A stretch of DNA of 64,000 nt from assembly GCF_019649055.1 (NCBI RefSeq), contig NW_026570226.1:2170001-2234000 (forward strand), in the 5' to 3' direction. Position numbers and translations under genes: made by a program. Origin of the DNA: Paramacrobiotus metropolitanus (Eukaryota > Tardigrada > Eutardigrada > Parachela > Macrobiotidae). Positions 40,401-63,643 of this stretch are shown here, one piece after another. Below the pieces are notes generated by a model that was given only the letters and a program-made list of their open reading frames with translations, was not told where the DNA came from and made no database searches. Position 1 is the stretch's first letter. Every line of letters starts with the position of its first letter.

Positions 40401-41381
40401 CCCGAATGACAAGGAAAAAAACTGGTATGCAATTACAACTAATTTGAGAGGGAGACACAGCCACTTTAAAAGTATCGAAGAAAACACTCTTTGTGGTTGT
40501 TTTTCTTTAATTGCCCCAACGCAGGGAGTCGGAGAGAGAACAAATTCTTTTTGATATTAATTTGACCTATTGCGCAAGGCACTTAACAGGGCCCAACTTG
40601 ATTACTATAGTATGGCCACCCATCAGCAGCGGTTCGGCATTTTTTCCCAGACCAGTTTGGTGGGCCTTCCGGTTGGGTGTAACCGGGGTGGAAACTGTGC
40701 TATTCGTAAAATACACAATACCCGTTAAATATTCTGGGCAGCCACCGATCCTCCCATATTGTATCCAAGGAGGGTGGTTCTTGTGGTTAGTAGCCGGCCA
40801 ATCGGCGCCGAGCATTTCTACCATATATGGAATCAATGGCTATTCACGCCAGCTGTTCAGCGGCGAGTGTACGAAACTTGTGCAGATGCAGAGAGAGAAG
40901 CGAGAGTGGTGTATGTCTGTGTGAGATGGAGCATTTTGATTCTGCGCATATTTCGGTGTGTGAATGGCAGACCAGTTTCGAATGTCCAGTCAGCTTGTAT
41001 ACGCGCCGCTTGTTTTCCCGCTCACTGAATGTGCCTCTTTTACTTTGGACTTTTTCAGACTACGCGCTTCACTCTGATGTGCACTGTTGATCAGTTGGCA
41101 ATGAAAGAATATCCGCTGGTCAGTTGCGGTTGTTTGATTTTGGACAGGCATTGATTTCCCGTGGAATCGGATGTTATTACATATGTATCATAATATCTCC
41201 ATCCGTACCGAATCACATTAATGCATTATCCATGGGAAAACGCGCGCGCTATCCTTCATTTTCACCGGCATTAATTTTGTGACATTTTTGTGGAGAAACA
41301 GCGATCTCGTTAGTATATACTGCGCGTCGCCAGGAGCGACTTCAGTGGTGTGAAAATTTCTCTCATTTACGCTAATAGAAA

Positions 41382-44300
41382 ATGAGGCCCCTGGTGCTAT
41401 GCGGCTTATATGTTCTCAGTTATATAAATGCATTATTCAGTTGGACGGCAGCCGGGGAAAAAATCTATCCCGTTATTGAGGAGTTGCCGGTGGGAACGTT
41501 TGTGGCTGACGTCCGTGAACAGCTACCGCGGAATCTCAGCAGTAAACCGGACTTGAAATTCGGTTTCCTACGGGGCTATGACAAAAAAGGCTTCTTTCAA
41601 ATTAACGATACTTCAGGCCATATCAGTACGGCGATGAAACTGGACCGCGAGACGTTGTGCGCTGATCAGCATGAGCCGGCTAATTGTTATTTTGACATTC
41701 CGGTCATAACGCTGCCGTTGCACCAATTTCAAATTATCCCCATTAAAGTGGAACTGCTGGACATTAACGACAATGCGCCGGTCTTCCCACAACGGGAGAT
41801 TGTCCTGGAGATCAGTGAAAATCAGCCGGTCGGGGCGAAATTCCAGATCCCACCGGCTACCGATGCCGATGGGGGTAAAGCGGCGCAGATTGAGTACTCG
41901 CTGAAAAGCCCATCGGCCGACATTCCATTCGTGATAATTAACAGTGTTAATACAGAAACACAAGACGTGTATCTGCAATTAAGCGCTCCACTGGATAGGG
42001 AAGTTAAGGATTTCTATGCGTTCTCCGTACTGGCCAAAGATCAAGGTGTACCCGCCCTTGTCGGCTCTATGGATGTGGTCATTCAAGGTAAGACACATAT
42101 GCTGTATGTACAGTGACGATGTCACATGTAATTACGGAAAAGTATGAATATTTGTCGGCATAGCATACTTTCCTTATCTTTTCATTGACTTGTCAAACAT
42201 CAAACATAGATATGTATCCATAGTGGCCACTTAAGGATGGGGTATGAGTGTCTATGAAAAAAACTTGTCCATCCGTGTTTACCGATGATTATGCTCAAGA
42301 ACAGCATCGCTGCTGTGTCAGACAATTGTTGCGGTTTGAACTTGTTTCACCGAAGGTCAGACAGTTAAACATTATCAAAATAATAAGTGGGTTATAAGTG
42401 TAAACAAGCGGCACTTTGCAATATGTCTTGATTGTTATATGCGTTGCACTTTTGAGTGCTACCAGTTTGTTTTCATTTACACAACTGGTTGTTTATTCAT
42501 TAGCACTATACAATTAGCAGAGCACAATAATTACTAAACAAAGAAAAGGTAAATAAGTATATGTATTACGAATCAGAATTAGCAGAGTTACCTTTCTAGA
42601 GACTTTTGCTTAAATTAGAAAGCAGCTTAACTGCCTATTTTTATAAATTTTAATTCATATCAGTTAAAGCACATTATTCCTTCTTTTGGTATTACTGCAT
42701 AATTTTGTCTAGATAATTTTGTATAGTGGTGGACTGAGTGCACGAGCGTGATATGCAAAGCGTGATACTGGTTGCATCTCCAAAGAGTTTTTTGCTGCTG
42801 TACTTACATAATGCAAAAGGCGCTTTAATTGACCGGAAGTATAACAGACTGATCTAATATTTAGGTGAAAACGTCACCCTGTCGATCTAACGATCCATAA
42901 CCAGTTTGTACATAAAATGCAAATTAAAATTTGATCGCATATCGTGCAACCGTTAATTGAGCAACCCAGTGTATGTATAAAGCATTTGCACGTTTTTTCT
43001 CTCCCAGTATTGTGCGACAGCAATCGAATCTCCCCTGTGGCTGGTTCTACACACCTTTTGTTAAAACGACCACATCCAGGCGAATACACTAATAACAACT
43101 TGATTGCTCCGCACAATTTGATAATGAAGCCGTGCACAAAATTGAGTGTGTGTTGGGTCGGCGATGGTTGGTGGCGGGTTGCGCAATATATCACATTCCT
43201 GGATACGCCTCATATATAATACATCCGAGGGTAACGGATCGAGCCGGGTCATGTTTAAACTACTGGCCGGCATTGATTTTACTTACATACCGTAAAGAGA
43301 TGGGTTCCTTACCGCACCACCAACGATATGTGGACATTTTTTCCAACCACGTTACACTCTCATATATCATGATTAAACTACAAAGATTCACTTGATAGGT
43401 TCTGCGGTAACTCAAGCTGTTTTCTAAACGATTTGCTGTCGACAGTCGTTAAAAAAACCATACATTTAGCGCTTCTTGTGAAGAGAGAAAAGCCGGCTTT
43501 TTAAGTTTGACTTATGACAGCCGAGTGTTGACATGCTGGTATATAAGACAATTGATTTTTGGGGCTGGGAATAATAATTGACATGGTTTTTTCGATCGTT
43601 GGTTCTTAACGACGGAACCACTTGGAAGCCGTGCCATATCAAATGAATCACACATTTAGGAAAAGGAAAGAGAAAACCGGGAAAAAACACCCGAAACCCA
43701 CTTCCGCCCTGTTGGGAGAGAAAGTAGGCCAGGCTCGTTTGTAGTCCGCTAAACTGGACGATGTGGTATTATGACAGCTGATCGTAATACCAGAAAATTA
43801 AGTGTTGTGCTTAAAGGGCAACTCCCCGCTTTTTAATCTATCACTGTGGAATAGCAGTGTACTGGGCGCATTGTACTGTTTAAAAATTCAATGCCCTTTA
43901 AATTGGAATAGGAAAAGTCTAAAATTGACAATTATCAGCCCGAATTTCCATCGGGAGTAGTTGATCGATTTCGTGTAATCCGGCGGTGTGTCCGGCAAAC
44001 TAGCCGCTATTCACCATTTTCTGTGTGTGTGCAAAGTATCACAAAAATCAGGCGTCGGGTGTTGTTCTGTGGGAAGATATAATACAAGGCCTGCACGTAA
44101 CGGAAGTAAGTTTATTTAGGTCGGGATAGTCCATCCGAATGGAAAATTTTGAATTTGGGTTGATGTGTCCGTCACTGGTCAGTGTGTGAGATGTGTGACT
44201 TGTACACGTGTATCCGTAGCGCGAAAATACGTTGCCATATGTGAAATCTAATATGAATGCAGATTCGCATATGTGACTGTGTGTTTACACTGATATGTCA

Positions 44301-47300
44301 TAATTAGTTAGAAAGGATACTCTTCAATAAATGTTCAATAATCAGATTTGATGGTAAGCATACTTTTAAGTGGGTCTAATGTCAATTATTGAACAACTTA
44401 ATATAAATGTTTTATAGCTATCTCTAGCAAAATACTTTTAAGTGCTCATAATTTTTTCGGTACAAGCTTGTATTCAAAATACGTTTCCGTTTACAATAAT
44501 TATTTTACATACACTATCATTTGGGCCAGAATTATATTATGAAATATGTCGCATTCAGTGAACATTTCACGCCTTTCTTGGCGTAATTCCAGCGAAGACA
44601 GATAGAAAAACGTCACAGCGAGCGCAATATACACTGTAGCTGCAAAAATTCTGTGCCGGGTGATTAGAAAACATTTGCCGATTAGAGAGTTGTTTACGGC
44701 CGTAATGGGCGCTAATCAAGTCGACTTGATGAGTTAGAAGAGACTGACGGGGTTGAATTTTCTCATCCCATGTTTGTATGCTGCAGTTACGGATGCCAAT
44801 GATCATGCCCCAGTTTTCGATGACCCCAGCTACGAGAAGCGCGTCCCCGAGAATGTCCCCCGTGGGACGCGCATCCTGAAAGTGCACGCCTCGGATGCCG
44901 ATCTGGGCCGGAACGGGGAAATCACCTACAGTATCGCCCCCATCACCAGCAAATTAGTCCGTGACATTTTCGACATTGACGGCGAAACCGGCGAAGTCCG
45001 GCTGAAAGCCGAACTGGACCGGGAGGTCAAGGATGTCCACAAGATCTGGATCAGTGCCCGCGATCGGGCCGACAGCAACCCGCTGGACGCCAGCGTCCTG
45101 GCCACGGTCATCGTGGATGATTTGAACGATAATCCGCCGCTGATCGATGTGTCGTACTTCCCCCCGGAAGCCAGTGCCGCCTTCATCTCGGAGGACGCCC
45201 CCATCGGGACATTCGTGGCGTTGGTGCGGGTGAAGGATGCCGATGCCGGCGTCAACGGTCGCGCGGTGTGCTCCCTGCAAAGCGACACTTTCGTCCTCCA
45301 ACAACAGTCCGACGACACCTACGCCATCATCACCAGTAAGATGCTGGACCGGGAGAAACGCGAGGATTACCTCTTGGAGTTGACTGCCCGCGACCAGGGC
45401 AAACCCTCCCTCGAGTCCCGCACCACTCTACAGATCCTGGTGGGCGATGTCAATGACTCGCCGCCCGTGTTTGACCGCTCTACATACTTGATTAAAGTGC
45501 GGGAGAGCGCCAAAATCGGAACGGAAATAGTTTCACTACGCGTGCAGGATCGCGATTCCAGTCCGGACAACCAACAAGTCCGCTACCGGCTACTGGAGCC
45601 GTCGAGTTTATTCAGTATTGATGATAAACGCGGCGTCATTTCCCTGCAAAGTACCTTAGATCGGGAGACCCTCGGGGACATGATCCAGTTGGCGGTGGAG
45701 GCCTTTGACCCCGAGAAGCCGGCCTTCCGCTCGCAGGCGGCGGTTGTGGTAGAAGTCCTGGATGAGAATGACAACGCACCGGAATGGTCCACCGCAGTGT
45801 ATGAATTCGACATCCACAATGACCTCCGCCGGGGCACGGTGCTGGGCAGTGTCCACGCCAGTGACAGCGACTTCGGAAACAACGCCATTATCACGTACTA
45901 TATCAATAGCTCGGAAATCACCATTAATCAGACATCGGGTGAGCTGGTAGCCGCCCGGGATATATTCGTCACTGAGCCACGACAGATTCAATTAACACTG
46001 CTGGCGGCCGATGGCGGTGAGCCGCGCCGTACCGCCACCGCCCAGGTCTTTATCACCATTGCCAATGTCAGCGCCAATCAGCTGGCCACGTCGCAGAATA
46101 TCTTGACCACGTTTTTCGCCTCGGATGTGGGACTTCCGGTCATCGTGGCGCTGATCGTCATGGGGCTGGCGCTGTTCGGTAAGCTTAAGTCAATGTGCCG
46201 CCGTGCGCAGTAATCTGTTGACAAATCATGATTAATGGAGTGTCGAAAGACGGTCAATTTCTCAACAGTATACGCATCGGTTTTTCTTAAATGACAAAGT
46301 TGTTGATGTGTAATGAACGAGCTTTTTCGCTTGCGGTTGCGTAAAAAGACGTTTAACTATGCCTGTATAAAATTTTTACGCCCAAATAAGCGCGCAACAA
46401 ATAATTTTCATTATCATAGAATTTATGGAAGTTGTTTTGTAAAATTTGTAATAACTATAACTGATGCAGAATGAGTTTTTCGCAAGAAAGCTTATTGGCA
46501 AATACTGCCGGATGTAGAAAAAAGAACCACAAACATGTGTTTTCGTTTATACTGCACATGGCTATGTAAATGAAAAAATATTCAATACAGTTTTGTACAT
46601 TGCTATAAAGGATAAGTGGCTCTCATATGTTTGAAATGCACTAGCAGCAAAACGAGCAAGTGGCCCAGTTTTTTCCTTCTCCCAGTGCGACCTGCCGGCA
46701 TTCTTATATGTATACATCTATACTGTGTAATGATTGTTTGTCTGGTGATGTGTTTGCAGTGGGAGCCATCTGCTTTGTGGTATTATATCGTAACAAATCC
46801 AAAGAGAACCACAGCTACAACGTCCGCATGGAGACGGCGCGTGTTTTTCAACGGGGCTCCAAAAGTCAATTAGCCCTGGGCGAGGGTAGCGGCCTGCAGA
46901 GCGACACGGACTCCTGTCATCGGCGGAGCGTGGAGAGTAGCAGTTGCAGTGCCGGTGGTACTGGCGGGGTTGATGACAAAGCCGGGTATGACTGGGTATT
47001 CCCCAATAGCCAAACGCCACCCGTCAGCTCCAGCACCAAATCATCGCGATGCTCCTCAGCCAGCACTAATCGCAATTCCCTGTTGAATGTAAGTAGATAC
47101 TACTGTCGTCGCAAATCGGCGGCAGCATAATATTTCGCCGGGCTCTGTAGTAGGAAACCAGGCCAATTTTGCAATTTACTCACAAGAAGCTACTTGATGA
47201 AAATTCAAATTCGGCCTGGATGTCGATCTGGGTTGGGATACATTATATGCACATATATGCCGTATCGTCTATATATACGTGTGTGGTGTGGATTTCTCCT

Positions 47301-58094: not shown

Positions 58095-59772
58095 CTATGA
58101 CATTAGGTATTCTTGTTCCAGCTCCAACATGTTTTTGTGAGTCTCATCCATCTGACGTTTCGTATCAGCAATTTCACGTCTCAATGAAATCATGCTAGCC
58201 AGGAGATCGCGAGCAGCGTCATCCAATTTCTTGCAGTTGGAACAACCACGTGGCTTCATGGTCGTCCGCTGCTTCCGCGAGGCACCTTTGGTCACTTCTG
58301 TAGTAAACCGTTCAATGCTATCACAGAATTCGCAATAAGGGCAACACACTCATTGTTAATCAATTCCAAAAGGCTACGAATTCAGTACCATCACCCTGCT
58401 CCATAACACCACAACTAACTGGCCTGTCGGGGCCAAACACCCTCGTCAACTATAATTAACGCTTGCGCTAACATCACTGTTGTCTGCTTCTATCTGTACG
58501 TTCGAATGGTTCAATTAATGGATACCGGGATAGTTTTCGTTTCCACTTTCCACTGTTGTGGATCAAACGGCTAAAACACTTTAAATATTTCCTGTATTTA
58601 ATCGTTACCTTTTTAAATATAAGTCTCGCAAAGCCCTTCACTGCACAATAAAAAAGGACTCATTAGTTATAAAAACTCATCATGCAAAAGACTGAGCTCA
58701 GTAACAGCCTCCATAAACTAAATTGCAAAACTAGACTTAAATTATAAATTATTCCGTATGTCTAAATACGAATTCCAAACACACATGCACATACGCACTC
58801 CAAACACGCTTGTAAAGAGCAATACACAACCGAAATAAAACTTCAAAAACTCGTAAACATACACATTGCAAAGTATGAGCCGTACCTTTCTTTTTCAGTT
58901 TTTCACGAACGACGCGCTGAGCAGCACCCTTCTCCTTGGACACGTTAGTCCGCTTTTTATTGCGGGCAGCCTGTTTGGATGGCAGAGGGTTGCATGGAAC
59001 TGTCGTGTCAGTGATTCCTAGAAAATCGCCGTCACCTGTAATTAAAAATCAATTTATCCTCTAATGTGATAAGGATAAAAAATATTAACGAACATTAAAT
59101 TAATCGAAAATTTTTATAATGCCAGTACCTTTCTTGACTATGACCAGACTCATAACATTAAGACTTCCGTTAGCAGTGCAGCCCTGGGCACCTTTGCACT
59201 TGCGTTCAAGAGTGAGTCGTTGGCGCTCTCGGACAGGCTGCTGGACTGGAGAACTATCTTCGGCATCACCCCGAACGATTCGGCAGACATAACCCTAAAA
59301 AAGCAAATAACGGAATGCAGTTACAGTACCATGGCAAGACGGGCGTAAAAAACAGTCTGTTGCGGCGCTGTTTAGTGAAAGCTTGTACTCAATTAACCAT
59401 GTCGAAACTGCCACTTAACAGACGGTGAATACTGACGTTGAAATCTTAAAACAAAGCAAATTCAAAAGTAAGTTTTAGGCCAATTTTGATTGTTTCTTAC
59501 TTTCCATTCATCACCGAGACGGTCCATGGCGATTTCCTGTCCTACGCGCTGTGCATGCAGAAAGCGAATGCAAAACTCATCTTCTATGTCAAGGAGCATC
59601 TGAGCCCCAGTGGCCGGATACGTGACGTTCAGCTGCAAAACCACGACAAAGATGCTGTAATTTTAATTATGCACAATTCACCGTACCTAGCCTCAATATG
59701 ACCGTACACTCGTACGACGCTCTTCAGTCAGTTTAGAGGAAACAATTAAAGATAATGAAAGTTCACCTTCAT
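58095..59772 (-). CDS. Divergent RPS6 (eS6)-like protein with CxxC/coiled-coil tail
   Basis: Five exons, 59772-59767 (ATG AAG only), 59632-59501, 59294-59129, 59035-58886 and 58297-58095 (TAG), keep frame and give 218 residues (human RPS6 has 249). Residues 1-46 track RPS6 closely (LNVTYPATGAQMLLDIEDE, ending DRLGDEWK at the same length as human). LNVMSLVIVKKG, then GITDTTVP, then SKEKGAAQRVVREKL match the later RPS6 core. Between them about 15 residues are missing, including the conserved KQGFPMKQGV region and much of the basic rRNA-contact segment. The canonical C-terminal helix with kinase sites is replaced by a basic stretch, PRGCSNCKKLDD and a heptad-like helix. It is therefore probably not the ribosomal protein but a neofunctionalised paralogue. 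Exon 1 carries only two codons, as in RPS6 genes with an intron next to the start. A pyrimidine run (TTCCCTTT) lies just upstream. Confidence 0.82.
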
Positions 59773-60849
59773 AATGGCATAAAGGGAATGAAATCGGGTT
59801 CTCGTGGGATTCTACTCTTGGTTCACAGGTGTCCGAAACTCCTGCTACCAGAACTATTACAAAATTAACGAGCGAGGATCGTTTTAAAGTTGTGATTTAA
59901 AGTCTAGACTCCCGAATAATAATAATGATAATAATTATGATAATATTATACGAGTAAGTACTCTGTTGTAAGTACGCTGTGCTACTGCTTACATAATAAA
60001 TTATTTTACCAAATTGACCTTATGCGACAGGGCAGCCGCGTACGGACGGCAGTTCGTGAAAACTTACGAGTTTCCGGAAGTCGCTGTTTCTGTCGCTAAG
60101 CACATGTTCGAAACAGCGACTTTAAATACTGCTCATGCAGCTAATGATCTGTTAGCAAAACCAAGACCATAACCAAAATGTACAGAAAAATGTGCTCTAC
60201 AAGGAAATGTTAACTGTCACGTGGAAATCTGTTACTGCAGTGACTTATTGCCGCCAGCGCTTTGCACCATAAAATTCGGTACTACAGATTCTGTTATAAC
60301 TGCGCACCTGTAGTTTGCCCTGTTAGCGCTATGCTTAATTCTCTGTTGTTTGGCCACTCACATAGCCAATGAGCGTGTTTGCACCGGCACCGCCCCTCTA
60401 CCGCATACCAGGAATTACCATAGAACTCTCTACAACTACTTACCGCTACAGAGATGCGGTTTCGTCGTAGAATACGGTAACGCTTAACAGTTAGTTAACA
60501 CTAAACAGCAGTCGGGCCGCGTTTGGGATTCCATTACCCCGAGCGCGACAGCGGAGTGACCGGACAGGGATAGGCGACAACCACATCTGTCGTATTTGGA
60601 ATTGGTGGAATCAAAAGTATACCTTGGTGGAATACACATTTCTTCACTTGGGTGACCCGCCAGGACTCACATCGCGATTCGCGACATGCAGCGGATGTCG
60701 TCAGACGCGATTTTTGTGAATCGCTTTTTCATTTTTTAGAATTGTTAATCGGGCAATTTTGGGAAAGGCAATTTTTTATTAAGTATCTTTCCTTGTATCA
60801 GTATCCTTCCTTGTACCGCGCGCTTAATTTTATGCTAGGGCGTTCTAGT
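59773..60849. promoter_or_regulatory. Divergent promoter region between RPS6-like and PACSIN-like genes
   Basis: This region of about 1.1 kb separates the two divergent starts, so it probably holds both promoters. It includes a TACGAGTA motif (59949). No TATA box was assigned. Confidence 0.4.
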
Positions 60850-63643
60850 ATGGAGCCCAACCTGCAGGACCATGGTGAGCCCGTCAGTGTGCTGAACTTT
60901 TGGGAACCAGGTGGTTATCAACGAACGACGAAGCGCGTCTTCGACGGTTACGAACTCTGCAATGATTTAGCGGAGATGATTGAAGAGCGCGCCGAAATTG
61001 AAACAAAACATGCCAATGAGATAAATAGTTGGTCAACAAAGTGGAATGGAAAGATCGTCGATAAAGGTTAGTCGGCCTGGATTGCCCCGGGCGGTGTTTA
61101 GTACAGACAAATTTCTTATGGAGACCTAATGGAAATTTGCGCTGCAAAAATTACGTAGAGCAGAAATTACACAGTTTCTGTTTTGTTTCCTGTAGCTGCA
61201 AATAATTTTCGTTTTCATTTGTTAAACCATGTGCAACGGTCGTTTGGTCGTTATTTCAATTCGTTACAGGATAGCGCCAACGGTATACGTAAAGTGCAGA
61301 AGTTGATTCCTTTGTTAACGTGCATTGATGGTTTTAGACAGAGTGTATGGATCGTTGGTTGGCGCATGGAAAGCTGTTTTCGTTGCAGCGGACCGGGAAG
61401 CGGAAGTTCGTTTGCGTGTTAAAAAAGATCTTATCAATATTGTCCAGGAGATTGGACGCTGGCAGCAGGATCATTTCCATCAAATTAGGATGTTAAACTC
61501 AGTGCATTTCAAGGAAAAGAAAGATACGGACGTCGCATTTGAGAACGTATGACTGAACTAAGTGAATTTACCTAAACGTTTATTTATAGTTTGTAAATAA
61601 TAGTACTTGCCGATTTCTAAATCATGCAGAATTATATTGCAGGCTCAAAAACAGTGGGCAAACCTCCGAAAACTCGTAGAAAAATCTAAAATTGAATACC
61701 ATATCAGTTCCCAAACAGAACAGTCGGCAGCTGCAAGATATCAGATGTTCAACGGCGACACGACTATTTCCGCAGATCAGGTACAAATACTGGAAATGTT
61801 GAATTTCGGGTCTGTCTATTGCAGTGTTGATTGTGAGTTAATTCCATGCAGCATAAGGACATTGCTGATGAAGTGGCGAAATCTGCACATTTAAAAATGG
61901 AAGCAAAAGCAGTTTACGAGGGTGCTCTTCGGGATTTGACTCGCTATAATCCGCGATATGTAGAGGATATGAAGAAGGTGAACACTGAATACTGGTAAGG
62001 TCAGGCTTAAGAGTAATCAAGTTACACATGTTTTTCAGGTCTACGGCAAATGTCAAGATATGGAGAAAAAGCGACTTGAGTTCTTCCACGAAAGACTGAT
62101 GTCCATACATCAAATACTAGACTTACCCAATGACATACAGTATGCTAATAACCGTCTTACGCGCTTTAATAAATCTGCACACATAACGACATAAACTGTT
62201 TACGTATTCGCTTATCGTTAAGTATGTAATTATCGTTAGTTTCGTTGTGTGTTACGTTTTGAAGGATAGACTCAAGATCAAAATACCGGTAAATCCCCGC
62301 ATGTTCTTTTTTTTGTTTTACGTTAGGTGTATTAATGGTTTGTTACGATAATTTTGTCGAAAGTTTGAAAATGTTGTCACGCTATATATCTATATAAGGC
62401 ATCAGCACGCTCCACGAAACTTTGCTTCGTTGTGTTTTTCCGTACAGGTTCAAGCAGATTTTTGAGGATTTCTTCAAGGAAGTTGAAGCAGCAAGTTCTG
62501 AAAACGATTTAATATGGTGGAATATACACAGAGGAATCGATATGCCTATGAGCTGGCCCAAATTTGAAGTGCGTTTAGCCGTGTACCATCTGTACGCGTA
62601 CTTAAGTCTGCACCTTATATAGATACTTCTATAGTCTATACTTCTACTCTATACGTATAACGGACTGCTATTGATGCAGCACTTACATACTTCTGGCATA
62701 TGTAAAGCTGACAGTTTGCTGGTTTTTTAGGAACGTTGCACCGGTTTGCCGGATGCGCTTCCTGAGGTGCACAACGTGCAGGACGGGCCGGACGCGGTGC
62801 TGGAGGTGTCAGCCGTGGTGCAGGACGTGTCGGCCGTGGTGCAGGACGTGCCGACGGCGGCGATGGGCGTGCCGGTCGTGGTGCAGGGCGGGCCGACCGC
62901 AGTGCTGGATACGTCAGCCGTGGACGAGGATGTGCCGGCCGTGGCACAGGACGTGTCGGCGGCGGTGCTGGGCGTGCCGGTTGCGGTGCAGGACGTGCAG
63001 GAAGCGTCGTCACGGAGCAGGACGCGTCATCGCGGAACACCGCATGCCCGGCGCGGTGTTGGACGTGTAGCCACGGTGGAAACCTCGTCCGTCGCATTGA
63101 ATAACCAAGTTGTAGGGATGGATGACCCTCCCATCGGGATGGTTAACCAGCCGAACGGGATGGTTAACCAGCCGAACGGGATGGAGAACCAGACCGTAGC
63201 AGACGCGCCTGCCGCCGTTTCTCTCCGAAGATCCCAAAGGCCACGGACCACTGTTGGTAGGTTATTCAAATAAACTGACTGTTTTCAGATAATATGGTAC
63301 TTATTATAGTTAAAATACAGCGTAATATGAAATACATGACAACTGACAGCCTTTGTAATACGGCAATCGGCTGTCAGACAGGTGAACACATCTGCTTTTT
63401 TCAGTTTCGGTTGTCGACCCTACTTCGCTACCCACAGTCGCTCCGCGTTCTACTAGTCGTCGAGGTTCCAAGCGCCCGCGTAAATGCGATCAGTGCCAAC
63501 TCAAAGACGATCAGATTAGCAGAATGACCGCAGAACATACTATAATGAGCAATGAGCTGGCAATCGTGAAGCAACAGAATGCAGACATGGAAAAAGTGCA
63601 GCAACGCCTTAGGACCCTGCGACGCCGAAATCCCTCACAGTAG
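60850..63643 (+). CDS. PACSIN/syndapin-like F-BAR protein lacking SH3, with Val-rich repeats and CxxC/coiled-coil tail
   Basis: Eight exons, 60850-61066 (ATG, MEPNLQDHGEP), 61338-61546, 61643-61780, 61852-61977, 62039-62139, 62448-62568, 62731-63256 and 63405-63643 (TAG), keep phase and give 558 residues. Residues 1-305 are an F-BAR domain of PACSIN type: NFWEPGGYQRTTKRVFDGYE, then YGSLVGAWKAVF, then AQKQWANLRKLVE, then KKRLEFFHERLMSIHQILDL, ending MPMSWPKFEE, which matches the family's AMNWPQFEEW. Such domains bind and bend membranes as dimers. After that, the usual NPF motifs and C-terminal SH3 are absent. Instead there are about 75 residues of GC-rich Val/Asp/Gln repeats (QDVSAVVQDV), a GMVNQPN duplication and a basic stretch. 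A terminal exon follows with RPRKCDQC, DD and a Gln-rich heptad-like helix. An in-frame upstream Met (MLGRSS) could also start translation. Alternative 3' exons beyond the window cannot be excluded. Confidence 0.84.
62776..63190 (+). repeat. GC-rich coding repeat, about 30-33-nt units, plus a GMVNQPN duplication
   Basis: Imperfect units around GTGCAGGACGTGTCGGCC recur about ten times between 62776 and 63010, in frame. A second simple repeat (ATGGTTAACCAGCCGAACGG) is duplicated near 63139-63182. Base composition differs sharply from the flanking AT-rich introns. Confidence 0.8.

Follow-up and report, generated by a model that had tools for sequence, protein, structure and literature searches.

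Similar predicted CxxC-helix tails at the ends of two neighbouring tardigrade genes derived from eS6 and PACSIN

Several described protein families come close to what is found here, each in a different respect. In the Rad50 zinc hook, zinc joins two protein chains that contribute one CxxC motif each, and the motif is located where an antiparallel coil turns back. In CtIP, according to PMC8205527, the two chains of a parallel dimeric coiled coil share zinc, each through one CxxC. The subject of this report is a pair of genes in a 64,000-nucleotide stretch of the genome of the tardigrade Paramacrobiotus metropolitanus (the window), one derived from the ribosomal protein eS6 (RPS6, Pfam PF01092) and one from PACSIN (syndapin), which end in similar tails with a CxxC motif at a predicted coiled coil. 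The likeness to CtIP is one of form, with zinc a possibility in the tardigrade tails, and there is a difference in position, as the CtIP motif, going by the same paper, interrupts the coil and the motif of the window tails caps the start of the helix. Unlike the turn of the Rad50 hook, the window CxxC lies at the beginning of a C-terminal helix. Compared with their own families, the eS6-derived protein aligns with eS6, apart from a gap of 15 residues against the human protein, up to an end that is unrecognisable as eS6, with a weak hint of native sequence up to the residues PR, and the PACSIN-derived protein has an F-BAR domain that aligns along its length and, instead of the SH3 domain, a coding repeat and the CxxC tail. 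Literature searches listed no paper on such tails.

The two genes are head-to-head neighbours. The eS6-derived gene lies on the minus strand (59772-58095) and encodes 218 residues in five exons; the PACSIN-derived gene lies on the plus strand (60850-63643) and encodes 558 residues in eight exons. Both models were rebuilt from the sequence, with GT-AG introns and open frames, and their splicing is predicted. Each tail consists of a basic stretch, the motif PRxCxxCxxxDD and a predicted helix of 47 residues. From PR onward 13 of 45 positions are identical between the tails, or 15 when the preceding S and R are counted. The first-pass annotation had described this architecture, the 13 identities and the entry of both terminal exons in phase 1, and all of this was recovered: PR, CxxC and DD stand at the spacing it gave, and the rebuilt models agree with it on phase and exon coordinates (Table 1).

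In a six-frame translation of the surrounding 144 kb, which is also the scope of the local searches below, the pattern C..C...[DE][DE] occurs three times and the pattern P[RK].C..C also three times, and in each case two of the occurrences are these tails. BLASTP gives the tail pair an E-value of 1e-4. The score of the pair was reached by one of 20,000 whole shuffles, by none of 10,000 in a second run, and by 14 of 20,000 segment-wise shuffles. Among the 3,804 open reading frames (ORFs) of the region, the tails are reciprocal best phmmer matches after self (E 0.003 and 0.0038), and the next-best matches have E-values of 0.34 and 3.9; the earlier expectation that the tails would detect each other above shuffled controls was thus borne out. 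The Smith-Waterman score of tail against tail is 63, whereas no other ORF exceeds 46. When a long, partly coiled-coil ORF was cut into pieces of 67 residues, the 194 pieces scored no higher than 49 with either tail, and the F-BAR domain, in 48 pieces, reached 30. Matches of the tails in Pfam all stay below the family cut-offs. Ranked by E-value, their top matches in the PDB are coiled coils of a generic kind, GCN4 constructs among them, and the PACSIN tail alone has one zinc-finger match (E 1.9). The tail match is one of motif and register, without long similarity, and it is modestly significant; since the tail pair had been singled out by eye from a large set of exons, the significance figures are overstated.

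The shape of the tails was predicted with AlphaFold2, run on two-row alignments. In both cases a single helix was obtained, which starts one residue past the first Cys, with a mean predicted local distance difference test (pLDDT) of 84.3 for the eS6-gene tail and 81.8 for the PACSIN-gene tail. When the seven possible heptad registers were scanned separately for each tail, the same one came out best for the two, with an a position falling at +2 past DD, and in the eS6-gene tail this register is strong (3 of 5,000 shuffles). Counted backward, the register puts the second Cys on an a position. The pair E15(g)-K20(e') is common to both tails, and their C-terminal halves carry net charges of -3 and +4. 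These features agree with a parallel coiled coil that has CxxC pairs as its cap, and the explanation that we tentatively favour, at somewhat less than an even chance, is that two derived gene copies carry CxxC-capped parallel coiled-coil tails which are either homodimeric or shared. The eS6-derived copy would have kept a shortened eS6 fold and the PACSIN-derived copy its F-BAR domain, and each would end in about five heptads of coiled coil in the same register, preceded by a basic linker and, where the helix begins, a CxxC cap. Each tail would then form a parallel coiled coil, as a homodimer or between the two proteins, and the two CxxC pairs would meet at the N-terminal end of this coil, where they could bind zinc or form disulfides. 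The gene models, the loss of the PACSIN SH3 domain, the motif, the predicted helix and the register are computed; we infer dimerisation, metal binding, pairing of the two proteins and their co-expression. A shared function of the tails in dimerisation is plausible. A bolder version, in which the two genes are chimeric, a non-ribosomal eS6-derived protein and an SH3-less, membrane-bending F-BAR protein form a dedicated zinc-clasped heterodimer, and the tails are what is left of an older local gene, the eS6 and F-BAR exons having been joined onto its last exons, is a long shot. If the favoured explanation is true, this locus would be a clean case of new protein partnerships arising by change of the last exon only.

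In the eS6-derived protein, the S6e domain is present (PF01092, 55.9 bits at a cut-off of 26), and the best PDB match has an E-value of 5.4e-32, with 58 eS6 chains listed. Local alignment places residues 1-151 on residues 1-165 of human RPS6, with a gap of 15 residues, and stops at residue 151, which is the last residue before the tail exon. The tail probably replaces the native C-terminus, perhaps with native residues kept up to PR. An ordinary eS6 gene was not found in the genome with PF01092, human RPS6 and the window gene as queries, and the matches listed were the window gene itself; missing sequence stretches may be the reason. The ribosomal protein gene eS8, in contrast, has matches on two contigs of the same genome.

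The PACSIN-derived gene can be compared with relatives from the same genome. Its F-BAR domain aligns over the full length with syndapin 3i2w (E 3.6e-74), and also with chains of PACSIN 1, 2 and 3. Two PACSIN paralogues are found on the same contig, a close one at C6:346.8-350.5 kb, which is 64% identical to the window copy over 289 codons, and a distant one at 1.174-1.178 Mb, which is 45% identical over 284 codons. Both paralogues have an SH3 domain, and in the close one an NPF motif is found as well. In the window copy the similarity to PACSIN ends with exon 6, which is followed by the repeat exon 7 and the tail exon 8; an SH3 domain was found neither in the gene nor within the surrounding 144 kb (best E 1.0). 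It is clear, and solid at the sequence level, that this copy lost its SH3 end and gained a new one. The F-BAR part looks to be under constraint, with nonsynonymous divergence (dN) of 0.21 and synonymous divergence (dS) of 0.89 from the close paralogue over the 289 codons. Beside that paralogue, at C6:340001-356000, there is no convincing eS6 or tail, the best matches to eS6 or the eS6-derived gene having E-values of 2.7 and above. The first-pass annotation had held that both tails replace the C-termini of their families; this stands for PACSIN, where SH3 is gone and the paralogues keep it, and is probable for eS6, where the replacement is less sure because many eS6 alignments in the PDB run into the tail. 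Exon 7 contains a minisatellite (62776-62998) that is in frame, with a period of 21 bases and 10.6 copies, and encodes a seven-residue repeat rich in V, D and A; a second 21-base array of 3.7 copies lies at 63115-63192. The proportion of differing synonymous sites (pS) against the close paralogue also varies by exon within 60850-62568, being 0.74 for exon 1 and 0.32-0.33 for exons 5-6, a difference that could be due to gene conversion.

One has to ask whether the tails resemble each other by chance, which is a real possibility, though somewhat less likely than the favoured explanation. Two fast-changing terminal exons could each have come to encode a basic segment together with a CxxC and a helix, and a reader looking over many exons could have picked the best pair. 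Several points weigh against CxxC-capped coiled coils as the explanation. Masking of PR, CC and DD leaves a score that is no better than that of 3,420 in 5,000 shuffles, which means that the signal lies in six motif residues (the count falls to 37 in 5,000 if CC alone is masked, to 6 if only PR is, and to 3 if only DD is). The heptad register of the PACSIN tail is weak, being equalled by 753 of 5,000 shuffles, and charge gives a heterodimer no more than a slight edge, with three attractive g-e' pairs versus two and two. In CtIP, dimerisation does not need zinc (PMC8205527). Elsewhere in the tardigrade genome, locus L029 (G000:C124:170136-170264, minus strand) holds MALPIKPSEMNKKCPQC followed by a helix-like stretch, a tail-like form that is apparently N-terminal. 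The masking result and this further CxxC-helix speak for chance, as do the helices alone in register, whose score is reached by 588 of 20,000 shuffles, and human eS26, which had come up only through weak database hits and whose basic stretch with P and CxNC yet gives a score of 42 with the eS6-gene tail (equalled by 7 of 5,000 shuffles). What chance explains less well is the gap between the tail score and that of the best other ORF, and that the genes are adjacent, that both exons are terminal and entered in phase 1, and that both tails have the same best register. Even if chance were the answer, the locus would still document a PACSIN copy that had its SH3 end replaced and, next to it, an eS6 copy whose end is new or remade, and would show that a CxxC-helix motif can easily mislead.

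The other alternatives concern the origin of the tails or the gene models themselves. The native eS6 C-terminus also has a basic stretch and a helix, and the eS6-gene tail could be a strongly diverged form of it, with PR derived from the conserved VTPR, the helix native and the likeness to PACSIN secondary, a reading that is compatible with chance. In 24 of the 58 listed PDB eS6 chains the alignment reaches residue 160 or beyond, and so enters the tail (in six of these it reaches at least residue 185); in yeast eS6, aligned without gaps through the exon junction, the PR of the tail falls on the PQ of VTPQ; and when the tail's first 20 residues are scored against the C-terminus of yeast eS6, 313, 182 and 56 of 4,000 shuffles do as well with gap opening costs of 12, 8 and 6. 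The whole tail, however, is at shuffle level, both against human eS6 (4,781 of 10,000) and against yeast eS6 (2,627, 1,074 and 757 of 4,000 for three gap costs). Placed behind exon 4, the real tail beats the shuffled tails against yeast eS6 in no setting (979, 1,349 and 845 of 4,000 reach its score), and among the PDB matches listed for the tail alone, which extend to E 10, there is no chain of eS6. That the native end persists in diverged form is unlikely, and disfavoured compared with replacement. It is also improbable that the gene models are wrong, such that a tail exon is spliced elsewhere or the normal C-terminus is encoded at an alternative 3' end. The exon joins are predicted, the pyrimidine tract before the eS6-gene tail is weak and this tail has its own ATG (MKPRGC); yet the splice sites follow the consensus, the phases agree on both sides, and the surrounding 144 kb contains no eS6 C-terminus (best E 0.68) and, as said, no SH3. 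The first-pass annotation had proposed that the tails arose when an exon was duplicated or shuffled from one neighbour to the other, and a recent event of this kind would account for the matching phase, terminal position and motif. An exon copied after the PACSIN duplication should diverge no more than the F-BAR domain does at synonymous sites. In the tails pS is 0.72 over 49 aligned codons and 0.82 when all 61 are taken; between the F-BAR of the window copy and that of its close paralogue it is 0.52, and when 49 F-BAR codons were drawn by bootstrap the median was 0.525, with 82 of 2,000 draws reaching 0.72. The sample is small, and gene conversion could blur this comparison because pS ranges from 0.32 to 0.74 among the F-BAR exons. 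At residues shared by the tails only 4 of 15 codons are identical (6.1 are expected from codon use), compared with 110 of 168 between the PACSIN copy and its close paralogue and 43 of 115 between it and the distant one, Met and Trp being left out of the paralogue counts; DNA identity of the tails in codon register is 36-41%. No inverted repeat of at least 14 bases linking the two terminal exons is among those listed. As the synonymous sites of the tails are saturated, recent copying is unlikely; if the tails go back to a common ancestor, their split is old and probably predates the PACSIN duplication, and otherwise they are convergent or alike by chance. The observation of the tails was correct, with a solid new end for PACSIN and a probable one for eS6, and the origin proposed for them is disfavoured.

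Further copies and other sources of the tails were sought as well. With the eS6-gene tail as query of the genome only the tail itself was found, and with the PACSIN tail itself and two weak matches. A first made-up consensus found just the two tails, and a second found these and two weak matches that were rejected on reading. Because neither tail's genome search found the other tail, equally remote copies would be missed. Four loci were rejected as a third member: in L003 the aligned part lacks the CxxC and contains a stop, in L004 the match is confined to residues 1-27, in L029 the CxxC is N-terminal and precedes the helix-like stretch, and L030 sits in a long, partly coiled-coil open frame. 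A viral source was not supported, with no relative in viral contigs and none of 84 pattern matches confirmed. An eS26-like zinc knuckle was also rejected as a source: the profile matches are weak (best E 0.051), and the shuffle results for eS26 kinship (7 and 247 of 5,000) concern a protein picked from a large database.

Table 1. Features of the two genes, in positions of the window
Feature	Position	Strand	Remark
eS6-derived gene, exon 1 (ATGAAG)	59767..59772	-	predicted; GT donor; fits eS6 start MKLN
eS6-derived gene, exon 2	59501..59632	-	gene model, eS6 similarity
eS6-derived gene, exon 3	59129..59294	-	gene model; contains the gap relative to human eS6 (15 residues)
eS6-derived gene, exon 4	58886..59035	-	clearly similar to eS6, the last exon to be so
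eS6-derived gene, terminal exon 5 (tail)	58095..58297	-	phase 1 entry
eS6-gene tail motif PRGCSNCKKLDD	58218..58253	-	
eS6-gene tail helix, 47 residues, predicted	58101..58241	-	AlphaFold2, residues 19-65
Intergenic stretch, 1,077 bases, head-to-head	59773..60849	.	length depends on start codons chosen; possible shared promoter
PACSIN-derived gene, exon 1 (F-BAR)	60850..61066	+	chosen start codon; second in-frame ATG six codons upstream
PACSIN-derived gene, exon 2 (F-BAR)	61338..61546	+	
PACSIN-derived gene, exon 3 (F-BAR)	61643..61780	+	
PACSIN-derived gene, exon 4 (F-BAR)	61852..61977	+	
PACSIN-derived gene, exon 5 (F-BAR)	62039..62139	+	
PACSIN-derived gene, exon 6	62448..62568	+	last exon with PACSIN similarity
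PACSIN-derived gene, exon 7	62731..63256	+	in-frame coding repeat of 21 bases, basic toward the end; without a Pfam family
PACSIN-derived gene, terminal exon 8 (tail)	63405..63643	+	phase 1 entry
PACSIN-gene tail motif PRKCDQCQLKDD	63476..63511	+	
PACSIN-gene tail helix, 47 residues, predicted	63488..63628	+	AlphaFold2, residues 28-74

Elsewhere in the window, cadherin domains are found in the plus-strand open frames 41379-42113 and 44738-46210, which are probably exons of one large cadherin gene.

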